Of a stretch of DNA of 20,895 bases, positions 5,251-12,050 are shown one piece after another. A program made the translations under genes and the position numbers. This DNA comes from a virus. The DNA lies in the IMG/VR virus record IMGVR_UViG_3300021368_002120, positions 1 to 20,895 of that record; one strand, 5' to 3'. The notes beneath the pieces were generated by a model that saw only the letters and a program-made list of their open reading frames with translations, ran no database searches and was not told the DNA's origin. Numbering within the stretch: the first letter of the stretch is position 1; each line of letters begins with the position of its first letter.

Positions 5251-5463
5251 ATGAATGATTTATTTAAACTTGTAGAACAATACCCAAACGATGCAGAGTT
5301 GGGTGCAGAACTTAGAAGATTATATTGGGAAAATGTTTCTCGATTAGAAAAAATGCAAAAGGAAATGGAAGGTGTAAAAATCTTCGAATCACCAGATGGG
5401 GGTAAAACAATTTACGAAAGGCCTTTTGGTGGAGATGTTTCACAAAGAAAATTAGTAAAATGA
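5251..5463 (+). CDS. 70-residue conserved-looking phage protein, unknown function
   Basis: The ORF starts 2 bases after the zinc-ribbon gene and overlaps the deformylase start by 4 bases (ATGA). The first half is helical and acidic (LFKLVEQYPNDAELGAELRR, then YWENVSRLEKMQKEME). The second half has a short IFESPDGGKTIYERPFGGD stretch that looks like a beta hairpin. No signal peptide, membrane segment or catalytic motif is seen. Probably cytoplasmic. Function unknown. Confidence 0.75.
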   Translation: MNDLFKLVEQYPNDAELGAELRRLYWENVSRLEKMQKEMEGVKIFESPDGGKTIYERPFGGDVSQRKLVK

Positions 5464-6077
5464 GATTAATAAAAGAAGCAAACAAATTAAAAAAACCATT
5501 GGAACCAAAACCAATGACTCAAGAAGAGATTGATTCAATCTCAACAACTCTTTTACAAGAACTTACAAAACATGGAGGTATTGGACTATCAGCAAACCAA
5601 ATTGGTTTAGATGCTCGTGCTTGTGTAATCAATGTAAAAGAACCTTTGGTATTGATAAACCCACGAATAACTGAAGTATCGGAAGATACTGTTGCTTATG
5701 TAGAACAATGTTTATCATTAGAAAAAACTATGAGAAAACCTGTTAAGACGGTTAGACATAAATCATTTACAGTTGAAACAGATAACTTAGGTACTGTTGT
5801 ATTTTCACCTGATTCAGAAACAGGTACATGGAAAGATTCTAACGAGTTCTTTTCAGATGAGGGGTTATTGGAATGTGTTTGTGCACAACACGAGATAGAC
5901 CACCTTAATGGAGTTCTTATAACTGACTCAATTCGTAGATATACCACAACCGTAGTTAGAGAAAAAAAGTATGGTAGAAATGAAAGAGTAATGGTTAAAC
6001 TACCAAATGGTGATACAGAATTTATGAAATACAAGAAAGCAGAACCTATGTTAAAGTTAGGGGCCGAAATCTTATAA
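5460..6077 (+). CDS. def: peptide deformylase
   Basis: Removes the formyl group from the initiator Met of new proteins. All three family motifs are present: GIGLSANQ (residues 40-47; usual GxGLAAxQ), EQCLS (82-86; usual EGCLS, with the metal-binding Cys84) and QHEIDH (143-148, with His144, His148 and catalytic Glu145). At 205 residues it is longer than the typical ~150-170. About 25 residues (112-137) are inserted before the HExDH helix and there is a ~40-residue basic C-terminal extension. Deformylases are known in marine phages, notably cyanophages, where they are tied to host protein processing. The gene overlaps the preceding ORF. Confidence 0.95.
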   Translation: MRLIKEANKLKKPLEPKPMTQEEIDSISTTLLQELTKHGGIGLSANQIGLDARACVINVKEPLVLINPRITEVSEDTVAYVEQCLSLEKTMRKPVKTVRHKSFTVETDNLGTVVFSPDSETGTWKDSNEFFSDEGLLECVCAQHEIDHLNGVLITDSIRRYTTTVVREKKYGRNERVMVKLPNGDTEFMKYKKAEPMLKLGAEIL

Positions 6078-9147: not shown

Positions 9148-10854
9148 ATGAGTTATATTTTAGGAATAAGTTGTGGTTATCATGATAGTGCTGCTTCTCT
9201 TATTAAAGATGGAGTAGTTCTTGCTGCATGTGAAGAAGAACGATTTACTGGTATTAAACATGATTATTCTTTTCCTACAAATACTATAAATTGGATTTAT
9301 AAACAATTTAATATTAGTGGTGATGATATTGATGTTGTTACCTTTTATGATAATCCTGAAACAAAGCTAAATAGAATAAAACGTTCAACACTTCGTGGGG
9401 GTTTATTAAATTACTTCAATAGAAAAAGGATTATAAAAAGAAATAAAATATTTTCAGATAACATAAAAAACGAGATAAAAAAACATACTCATAGTAATGT
9501 AGAAATATTTTTTTCAGACCATCACCTTTCTCATGCTGCCTACTCATATTATACTTCACCATATAATGATGCATTAATTTTAACAGTTGATGGTGTTGGT
9601 GAATGGGAAACTACTTCTTTATATAAAGGAAAGGATAATCAATTGGAAAAAATAGAATCCATAAAATTTCCACACTCACTTGGAATGTTGTATTCTGCTT
9701 TTACTGCGTATCTTGGATTTAGACCAAACGAAGGTGAATATAAAGTAATGGGATTGGCACCATATGGTAATCCAATAAAGTATTTACAAAACTTTAAAAA
9801 ACTATATACTGAAAAAGAAAATGGAGATTTTAAATTAAATATGAAATACTTCACTTATGATTACTCAGATACTCAGATGTTTAATTATAAGTTACCTATG
9901 GTATTTAAAATGCCTCCAAGAACACCTGGTTCTAAAATTACTCAAAAACATAAAGATATTGCTTCCACATTACAGCATGAGTATGAGTATTTATTTTTTA
10001 AACTTTTAAAAAGATTATCAAACTTAGGTACTACTAAAAATTTATGTTTAGGTGGTGGGTGTGCATACAATGGAACTGCAAATGGAAAAGTATTAAAACA
10101 AACTTCATTTCAAAAGTTATATATACCACCTGCTCCATCTGATTCCGGTTCTGCCATAGGTTCTGCGTTATACTACTATTATTTGGTAAATAAAGATTCT
10201 AAAAGAATTGCAAATGAAAATCCATATCTTGGTCCATATTACACCAAAGAAGAAATTCAACCTATATTACAAGAATTTGAAGATAAAATAGAATATAAAT
10301 GGAATATACATACCTCAATTATAGATGAAGTTACTGATTACATTAAAGATAACAAAGTAGTTGGTTGGTTTGAAGGAAGAATGGAGTTTGGTGCAAGGGC
10401 ATTGGGAAACAGAAGTATTCTTGCAAATCCAAGAGACCCTGATATGAAAAGAAAACTTAACTCAGTAGTAAAAAAGAGAGAAGGGTTTAGACCATTTGCT
10501 CCGATTGTAAAAAAAGAATCAGAACATAAATATTTTATTGTAGATGGCGAAGTTCCATATATGAATCAAGTTGTATTGGTAAGAGAAGAACATCGAGATA
10601 ATTTACCTGCTATTACTCATGTAGATGGTTCTGCTCGAATCCAAACCCTTGAAAAAAAGAATCACCATAGAATGTGGAGGATATTGGATTCTCTTGAAGA
10701 AAAAAATAAATATCCTATTGTACTAAACACATCATTCAACTTAAAAGACCAAACAATGGTGTTAGACCCCAAAACTGCAATACAAACATTTCTTAATTGT
10801 GATATGGATTTGTTAGTTATTGAAAACTTCATTATTAAGAAAAAAACACTTTAA
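9148..10854 (+). CDS. NodU/CmcH/TobZ-family carbamoyltransferase
   Basis: A 568-residue protein with the full two-domain architecture. N-terminal Kae1-like domain: MSYILGISCGYHDSAASL, the metal/nucleotide motif SDHHLSHAAYSYY (residues about 120-135), LTVDGVGEW, FRPNEGEYKVMGLAPYG and CLGGGCAYN. C-terminal YrdC-like-coupled domain: GRMEFGARALGNRSILANPR, RPFAPIV and LNTSFNLKDQ. The family uses carbamoyl phosphate and ATP to make carbamoyl-AMP and carbamoylates hydroxyls of sugars, antibiotics or, in some phages, 5-hydroxymethylcytosine in DNA. The substrate here is unknown. Its neighbours are the unknown 277-residue protein upstream and the exported protein downstream. All usual motifs are intact and the length is normal. 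Confidence 0.94.
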   Translation: MSYILGISCGYHDSAASLIKDGVVLAACEEERFTGIKHDYSFPTNTINWIYKQFNISGDDIDVVTFYDNPETKLNRIKRSTLRGGLLNYFNRKRIIKRNKIFSDNIKNEIKKHTHSNVEIFFSDHHLSHAAYSYYTSPYNDALILTVDGVGEWETTSLYKGKDNQLEKIESIKFPHSLGMLYSAFTAYLGFRPNEGEYKVMGLAPYGNPIKYLQNFKKLYTEKENGDFKLNMKYFTYDYSDTQMFNYKLPMVFKMPPRTPGSKITQKHKDIASTLQHEYEYLFFKLLKRLSNLGTTKNLCLGGGCAYNGTANGKVLKQTSFQKLYIPPAPSDSGSAIGSALYYYYLVNKDSKRIANENPYLGPYYTKEEIQPILQEFEDKIEYKWNIHTSIIDEVTDYIKDNKVVGWFEGRMEFGARALGNRSILANPRDPDMKRKLNSVVKKREGFRPFAPIVKKESEHKYFIVDGEVPYMNQVVLVREEHRDNLPAITHVDGSARIQTLEKKNHHRMWRILDSLEEKNKYPIVLNTSFNLKDQTMVLDPKTAIQTFLNCDMDLLVIENFIIKKKTL

Positions 10855-11723: not shown

Positions 11724-11760
11724 ATTTTAAACTTAATAATTTCAGAACGCGTTAAAAACT

Positions 11761-11789
11761 AAACCCCCACAGAAAGGTGGGGGTTTTTT
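11761..11789 (+). terminator. strong intrinsic terminator after the small membrane protein
   Basis: A perfect 10-bp inverted repeat, AAACCCCCAC / GTGGGGGTTT (11761-11770 and 11777-11786), with a 6-base loop is followed by T residues. Its T tract runs into the TATATTTATA element at 11789. Confidence 0.93.
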
Positions 11790-11798
11790 ATATTTATA
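11789..11798 (+). promoter_or_regulatory. TATATTTATA late-promoter-like element
   Basis: An exact copy of the 10-mer joined directly to the T tract of the preceding terminator. Transcription would start near 11803-11806, just at the first hairpin of the leader. Confidence 0.6.
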
Positions 11799-11801
11799 TG
11801 T

Positions 11802-11900
11802 AGACCGTGTGGACTGGTCTTTACAATACAGTCGCGGGTGGAGTGAACGCATCCGAAACAATCGTTGCATATGTTGAACCTTTAAAAGAAAGGATTTGAT
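11802..11900 (+). ncRNA. GC-rich, possibly structured leader or small RNA
   Basis: Positions 11801-11880 are 49% G/C by hand count (39 of 80), against about 30% nearby. Inverted repeats: AGACC/GGTCT (11802-11806, 11816-11820; 9-base loop), GACTG/CAGTC (11812-11816, 11829-11833; competing with the first) and CGGGTG/CATCCG (11835-11840, 11850-11855; 9-base loop, one G-T pair). The loops GTGTGGACT and GAGTGAACG match at 6 of 9 positions. It is bounded by a promoter-like element upstream and a terminator downstream at 12012, so an RNA of about 210 nt is predicted. A coding alternative is listed separately. Confidence 0.35.
11807..11899 (+). CDS. possible 30-residue peptide, GTG start
   Basis: An open frame reads VWTGLYNTVAGGVNASETIV then AYVEPLKERI and stops 1 base before the next ATG. 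The composition is protein-like. There is no ribosome site, and the GTG would sit almost at the predicted transcript start, so it would need leaderless initiation. It competes with the structured-RNA reading of the same bases. Confidence 0.25.
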   Translation: MWTGLYNTVAGGVNASETIVAYVEPLKERI

Positions 11901-11981
11901 ATGAGCAAAGATGAATTATTAATGGCACTTGAACCAAACCAAGGCCATCTTCAAGCTCTCCAAGAAGAGAAGAAGAAATAG
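11901..11981 (+). CDS. 26-residue charged peptide
   Basis: MSKDELLMALEPNQGHLQAL followed by QEEKKK. An AGAAAGGA ribosome site lies 6 bases before the ATG, and a strong terminator begins 6 bases after the stop. It is therefore the only well-supported ORF of a short transcription unit with its own promoter-like element and terminator. The peptide would be a single amphipathic helix with a Lys-rich tail. Function unknown; small phage peptides of this kind often bind host RNA polymerase or other host proteins, which is only a possibility here. Confidence 0.55.
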   Translation: MSKDELLMALEPNQGHLQALQEEKKK

Positions 11982-11987
11982 AGACTG

Positions 11988-12012
11988 AACCTCTCTTCGG
12001 AGAGGTTTTTTT
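11988..12012 (+). terminator. intrinsic terminator with UUCG tetraloop
   Basis: A perfect 8-bp inverted repeat AACCTCTC / GAGAGGTT closed by a TTCG tetraloop (11996-11999) is followed by a seven-T run. UUCG loops are exceptionally stable. The T tract is followed by the next promoter-like element at 12019. Confidence 0.94.
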
Positions 12013-12018
12013 ATTCAC

Positions 12019-12028
12019 TATATTTATA
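12019..12028 (+). promoter_or_regulatory. TATATTTATA late-promoter-like element for the virion operon
   Basis: An exact copy of the 10-mer, 22 bases before the ATG at 12051 and directly after a strong terminator. The position suits the start of the structural-gene operon. Confidence 0.65.
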
Positions 12029-12050
12029 TACAACATAATATGGTATAATA

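Follow-up and report, generated by a model that had tools for sequence, protein, structure and literature searches.

A predicted riboswitch-like leader RNA precedes small-peptide genes in marine phages and streamlined marine Flavobacteriaceae

Marine bacteria with streamlined genomes make heavy use of RNA switches; in cyanobacteria, the peptides found under glutamine riboswitches either regulate glutamine synthetase or are suspected of doing so. The glutamine riboswitch aptamers of cyanobacteria associate mainly with DUF4278 genes (PMC6316151), and the Downstream-peptide motif precedes orphan ORFs of 17-100 aa (PMC2864571). The pseudoknot sequence and contacts of the glutamine-II RNA have been described (PMC6698751). 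Phage-encoded glutamine riboswitches were reported in the OM43 phage Melnitz and the Pelagibacter phage Mosig (PMC9004378). Here we analyzed a 20,895-nt stretch of DNA from an IMG/VR viral record (hereafter, the window), in which a structured leader RNA lies in front of a 26-codon ORF (Table 1).

We re-inspected positions 11789-12012 and found that the letters agreed with the preliminary description, which had proposed a GC-rich structured leader, a tiny 26-residue ORF and flanking terminators. The G+C content of positions 11802-11881 was 48.75% in a window of 30.1%, and only 0.24% of 80-nt windows were equally high. A scan recovered the terminators on both sides of the unit, with three terminator-like sites found against 0.2 expected. 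All three inverted repeats reported for the leader were present: AGACC/GGTCT encloses the loop GTGTGGACT, GGGTG/CATCC encloses the loop GAGTGAACG, and GACTG/CAGTC competes with AGACC/GGTCT. The leader had an ordinary minimum free energy (z -0.98), so thermodynamic stability alone would not single it out; cross-species conservation and covariation provide the stronger evidence for the RNA. Elsewhere, the window carries auxiliary metabolic genes (624-1589, 5460-6077 and 9148-10854): an S-adenosylmethionine synthetase (Pfam), a Nol-like carbamoyltransferase (PHROGs) and, by reading alone, a peptide deformylase-like ORF.

Table 1. Features of the RNA-peptide unit and its borders (positions in the window)
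Feature	Position	Strand	Details or basis
Intrinsic terminator ending the upstream gene; left edge of the cassette	11761-11786	+	Terminator scan and comparison with empty alleles
TATTTATA, promoter-like phage motif (putative), 3 nt 5' of the first base of the RNA	11791-11798	+	Recurs 5' of genes
Leader RNA core (model R1, 81 positions)	11799-11879	+	100.9 bits for the window copy
Pseudoknot 1 (modelled)	11802-11833	+	S1 11802-11806/11816-11820; L1 GTGTG 11807-11811; S2 11812-11815/11830-11833; L3 11821-11829
Frame once proposed as a 30-residue ORF, non-coding	11807-11899	+	Frame broken or fused at varied points in relatives
Pseudoknot 2 (modelled)	11835-11866	+	S1 11835-11840/11850-11855; L1 GAGTG 11841-11845; S2 AACG 11846-11849 with CGTT 11863-11866
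26-aa peptide ORF MSKDELLMALEPNQGHLQALQEEKKK, NQGH family	11901-11981	+	Homologues of 22-53 aa and purifying selection
UUCG intrinsic terminator, resident in the slot and also present in empty alleles	11987-12008	+	Scan and allele comparison

A search of Rfam 15 at the gathering cutoff gave no match on the window and only tRNAs on 18 related loci, in line with the earlier statement that no known RNA family was recognised. Sub-threshold matches on the window covered the terminator or the ORF and were judged to be chance. The open-access papers searched (subscription papers and preprints were outside the scope) held no description of the RNA, and the family is thus absent from Rfam 15 and unreported in the open-access literature searched. 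BLAST against phage and plasmid records gave nothing beyond short stretches of Prochlorococcus phage MED4-213 and of Flavobacterium phage hemulen, which overlap annotated genes and were discarded. Pattern scans of viral contigs identified the RNA in at least five phage settings: the slot of the window (ten contigs including the window), L165/L176 (adjoining a tail sheath gene), L167, L173/L174/L284 and L175. Looser viral patterns added only chance matches (L164, L179-L182, L285 and L286). A pattern scan of genome contigs identified the RNA on 56 contigs, nearly all from metagenome-assembled or single-cell genomes of marine Flavobacteriaceae. With the covariance model R1, a single copy per genome was found in 18 of 20 genomes of 1.0-2.2 Mb. 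Ten of 397 Flavobacteriaceae genomes matched, every one of 1.2-2.2 Mb, as did 9 of 13 genomes within one genus, while 396 genomes of the order yielded no further genome and hence no wider distribution. The hosts are therefore streamlined marine Flavobacteriaceae with genomes of 1-2 Mb, mostly with one copy. Altogether, R1 matched 75 copies in phages and hosts (32-106 bits), 65 of them distinct (alignment A4).

The host single-cell genome AG-894-L20 has a copy (L185, whose contig also carries mnmE) that was identical to the window at 76 of the 81 core positions. In a tree, L185 clustered with the phage copies and the phage copy L173 fell elsewhere, a placement that is weak given such short sequences. 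From these comparisons we infer that phage-host transfer of the RNA has occurred, probably more than once. The phage copies retain the RNA though their promoter differs from that of the host. The neighboring host genes, with ORFs judged by reading, showed no shared nitrogen theme. We also noted a degraded copy of 32 bits (L267, 1129-1209), whose adjoining ORF resembles the one after the intact RNA-peptide unit of L204; this suggests that one lineage lost the unit. Inverted repeats like TTGTGAAA-N7-TTTCACAA were seen just 5' of the RNA in many host copies (L188, L192, L197, L228 and L234) and are possibly a candidate operator for a transcription regulator.

Examination of the alignment indicated that each of the two 9-nt hairpin loops can pair with a tetranucleotide that lies downstream and never varies; the result would be a tandem of two H-type pseudoknots built alike: a stem of 5-6 bp, a first loop of 5 nt rich in G (GTGTG; GAGAG or GAGTG), a second helix of 4 bp and an A/U-rich linker. 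Under this drawing 98.8% of the cells in A4 pair, while slid versions reached at most 45%. Three pairs of S1 in pseudoknot 1 had changes on both sides, the variants including AGACC/GGTCT, AACCC/GGGTT, ATCCC/GGGAT, ATTCC/GGAAT and GACCC/GGGTC. The whole structure contained 56 two-sided cells compared to 18.9 in shuffles, and none of 500 shuffles reached 56. In pseudoknot 2, S1 (CGGGTG/CAYCCG) was 99.0% paired, its sole change being G-U/G-C. On the other hand, the S2 helices of pseudoknot 1 (GACT/AGTC, 99.2% paired) and pseudoknot 2 (AACG/CGTT, 99.6% paired) never vary in A4 and show no covariation; the pseudoknots are therefore a model. Covariance among related sequences, which had been suggested as a check on the leader, thus held for the first helix and did not extend to the S2 helices. 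Our first collections used patterns that required the S2 letters, and model-based searches without that requirement added few copies. When loops and linkers were shuffled, both tetranucleotide matches occurred in the same geometry with p = 2-6e-4, or in 1-2% if any loop tetramer was allowed. Taken as modelled, the leader RNA likely folds as two tandem H-type pseudoknots of ~32 nt each. The third inverted repeat, previously described as a competitor of the first, exists but more plausibly forms the second helix of one H-type pseudoknot, behind which lies another of identical build. A closing stem suggested by the fold (TATGTA/TGCATA) was unconserved and was dropped.

Three unrelated small-peptide families follow the leader RNA. 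The first, to which the window ORF belongs, consists of NQGH peptides of 22-53 aa with the consensus M(S/D)(D/E)(K/E)xxxALEPNQGHAxAM, which occur behind the RNA in both phages and Flavobacteriaceae. Nearly all of them start 46-54 nt beyond the core AACG. The 12-codon core of this family had a pN/pS of 0.32 (31 distinct sequences), indicating purifying selection and bearing out the tiny ORF as a real gene. The second is a 41-aa family (MKYYNKTRTIEQK) that starts 88-183 nt downstream, often with a decayed start region of the first class in between; since it is also found without the leader RNA, it is not RNA-specific. The third comprises DUF4278 proteins in hosts (Pfam E-values of 1.6e-9 and 2e-8). 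DUF4278 occurred in 7 of 22 RNA-bearing genomes, in each case directly behind the RNA, with the domain starting 33-49 nt past the core. The window peptide itself matched neither DUF4278 (PF14105) nor any other Pfam family, and phage L173 has a 22-aa YRG peptide that looks like DUF4278, though it is too short for a family test. Even within one genus, the peptide family behind the leader RNA differs, as between G006 and G017. Two copies lacked a short ORF altogether: in L207 a terminator directly follows the core, and in L268 the peptide is absent.

The preliminary description had also considered a two-peptide unit of 30 and 26 residues, the longer one starting at 11807. This frame is open in the window and is fused to the 11901 ORF in several phage copies, the two being joined after a 1-nt change, as would be expected if the conserved leader encoded a 30-residue peptide or an N-terminal extension of the 26-residue one. 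However, in relatives, hosts included, the frame closes after 5-34 codons by a variety of changes, indels shift it, and the stem shows compensatory changes. Since relatives break or fuse the frame at varied points, we rejected it as coding and consider a coding leader extremely improbable; the openness of the frame is a by-product of RNA conservation alone.

We then compared the site with related marine phage contigs, in many of which the flanking genes of 76 aa and 136 aa adjoin each other. Among 57 distinct intervals between these genes, 47 were 95-108 nt long and contained only one terminator and the ATATTTATAT motif, 7 contained the RNA-peptide unit and 3 contained other small genes. This comparison presents the RNA-peptide unit as an insertion at a variable slot and agrees with the earlier view of a self-contained unit. 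Because 47 of the 57 alleles are empty, the unit in the window is the inserted element, with the right terminator resident and the left terminator having arrived with the unit. The slot (window 11724-12050; L005, L010, L013, L017, L022 and L157) is hypervariable, and some alleles hold a different short gene. One variant has an ORF of ~800 nt before the RNA-peptide unit, and another has a 1.7-kb ORF that is DnaE-type polymerase-like by eye.

The TATTTATA motif, which reads as the T4 late motif TATAAATA in reverse complement, is a candidate phage promoter. All five plus-strand copies in the window (9137, 10890, 11791, 12021 and 14649) lie directly 5' of genes, both minus-strand copies lie inside genes, and the motif is kept before the 136-aa gene in relatives. 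The promoter-like element proposed earlier was thus upheld by its position, but the raw count in the window was not above chance. In hosts, a Bacteroidetes -7-like element was found 3-9 nt 5' of the RNA in 28 of 59 copies, compared to 8.6% in shuffles. Because of this host element and the phage motif 3 nt upstream, transcription is inferred to start near the first base of pseudoknot 1.

DUF4278 is a family that glutamine riboswitches control elsewhere. In ~690 genomes of Flavobacteriaceae/Flavobacteriales, DUF4278 above the cutoff was confined to G526 and to three genomes in which it follows the leader RNA (G375, G168 and G007). Contig 19 of G526 is a T4-like phage contig placed in a bacterial genome bin, with a gp23 capsid gene (E 1e-146). 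The DUF4278 gene directly after gp23 is headed by the glutamine riboswitch RF01739 (L295, 1360-1468; 48.1 bits, E 6e-10), without the leader RNA, in a terminator-riboswitch-peptide layout like that of the window cassette. A known glutamine riboswitch and the new RNA therefore precede the same family in the same cassette layout, in phages and bacteria of the sea. The two RNAs share the words GAACGCAU and AUCGUU in permuted order (p ~0.003 in a shuffle test chosen post hoc). AACG/CGUU and GAACGCAU are common to the leader RNA and glutamine riboswitches, and their order here requires a circular permutation of the glutamine-II pseudoknot. The models RF01739 and RF01704 did not match the leader RNA even at E 10, and RF01704 gave no match on the window, the 18 loci and two core regions. 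In the 17 RNA-bearing host genomes RF01739 had no match, with a control genome responding; RF01704 had none either, a weak indication of genome-wide absence as no positive control responded. We regard the sequence likeness as a lead and not as membership.

The leader RNA most likely acts in cis, as a riboswitch or another ligand-binding leader for the small-peptide gene behind it. Our preferred explanation, which we consider somewhat better than even, is a phage-borne mini-mRNA cassette in which a new riboswitch-like leader sets the expression of a micro-ORF, presumably under control of a ligand. The regulated mini-mRNA proposed earlier is supported by the structured leader and the real 26-aa ORF; regulation itself is part of the model. 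The cassette would run from a phage promoter-like motif through the 5' leader RNA and the 26-codon ORF to the terminator, its leader being one member of a family of structured RNAs from marine Flavobacteriaceae with streamlined genomes, with tandem pseudoknots beginning at or near the transcript 5' end. A ligand would stabilise the pseudoknots and change expression of the ORF, probably through the second pseudoknot being stabilised against an alternative pairing of its CGUU strand. One such alternative to the second pseudoknot, a GTTA/TAAC hairpin, was present in only 30 of 59 host copies and is therefore no general expression platform. Most speculatively, the signal may be L-glutamine or another nitrogen-status metabolite, a testable guess. 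Through a host-type switch, the phage would then time or dose a peptide acting on host metabolism, and the peptides may, speculatively, act on nitrogen metabolism.

An unlikely alternative in our judgment is that the leader is a trans-acting small RNA or a dual-function RNA, the peptide ORF being a passenger or a second product. The RNA is kept where the NQGH peptide has been lost (L207, L268 and the 41-aa class with its decayed NQGH start regions), so a trans-acting RNA fits too, and there is usually one RNA copy per genome, as an orphan unit. Against this, nearly every copy of the RNA stands in front of a short ORF at a spacing that hardly changes, peptide families swap behind the RNA, and phages carry it together with the peptide. 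A role as an independent, abundant small RNA, which the preliminary description had raised, keeps some probability. The very high sequence conservation and the two similar tandem modules, which would suit a dimeric binder, are also what a protein-binding site might look like, whether for autoregulation by the peptide or for a host RNA-binding protein, with no metabolite aptamer involved. Yet no candidate protein was found, and the peptides behind the RNA are unrelated, making autoregulation by each peptide unlikely; we give this explanation a low probability. The apparent start of the RNA at or near the transcript 5' end, judged from the host -7 element and the phage motif, would also suit pseudoknots that serve as a ligand-free, constitutive 5'-end stabiliser or translation enhancer of short mRNAs. 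Near-invariant loops across ~80 nt exceed the usual needs of a stabiliser, however, and the association with the riboswitch-controlled DUF4278 family speaks against it as well, so that such a role seems distinctly unlikely.

The ligand-binding leader that we prefer works like known leader-plus-peptide units, although the RNA family itself is new. Its 80 nt offer an immediate ligand hypothesis, and the peptides of 22-41 aa form a family. That a separate RNA family, from another major marine group, stands before the same protein family and travels in phages suggests a shared logic of nitrogen control, 'RNA sensor plus tiny peptide', that viruses exploit. If the ligand is glutamine, this would be a third glutamine riboswitch class. 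The fuller proposal, a permuted glutamine or nitrogen-status class with tandem pseudoknots that arose in marine Flavobacteriaceae, converged on DUF4278 and small-peptide targets and was captured more than once by phages as a movable cassette, is tentative and in our view rather doubtful.

Among known systems, the leader RNA can be compared with the Glutamine-II/Downstream-peptide motif (RF01704) and the Yfr6-type unit. As modelled, the leader RNA is likewise a pseudoknotted leader before orphan short peptide genes, DUF4278 included, in streamlined marine bacteria (PMC2864571, PMC6316151), and likewise would pair a CGUU strand with an AACG located towards the 3' end of a purine-rich hairpin loop. 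The leader RNA precedes DUF4278 genes in 7 of 7 cases, and two other families. In RF01704, however, the CGUU(C) strand, which pairs with GAACG in the P2 loop, lies 5' of the hairpin, whereas in the copies of the leader RNA that we read CGUU lies 3', so that such pairing could form only in permuted order. The leader RNA also differs in having two modelled pseudoknots, in belonging to Flavobacteriaceae rather than picocyanobacteria, and in having no Rfam match. RF01739 forms a three-way junction, in contrast to the modelled pseudoknots of the leader RNA, which has no significant match to it. The preQ1-I, SAM-II/SAM-V and guanidine-III riboswitches resemble the leader RNA as modelled in using H-type pseudoknot modules of ~30 nt, but the leader RNA has no significant match to them, carries two modules in tandem and has peptide targets. 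Melnitz and Mosig, like the phage of the window, are phages of streamlined marine bacteria with a metabolic riboswitch (here riboswitch-like and predicted); theirs is a known RNA class tied to tmRNA, whereas the window phage carries a new RNA with a peptide ORF.
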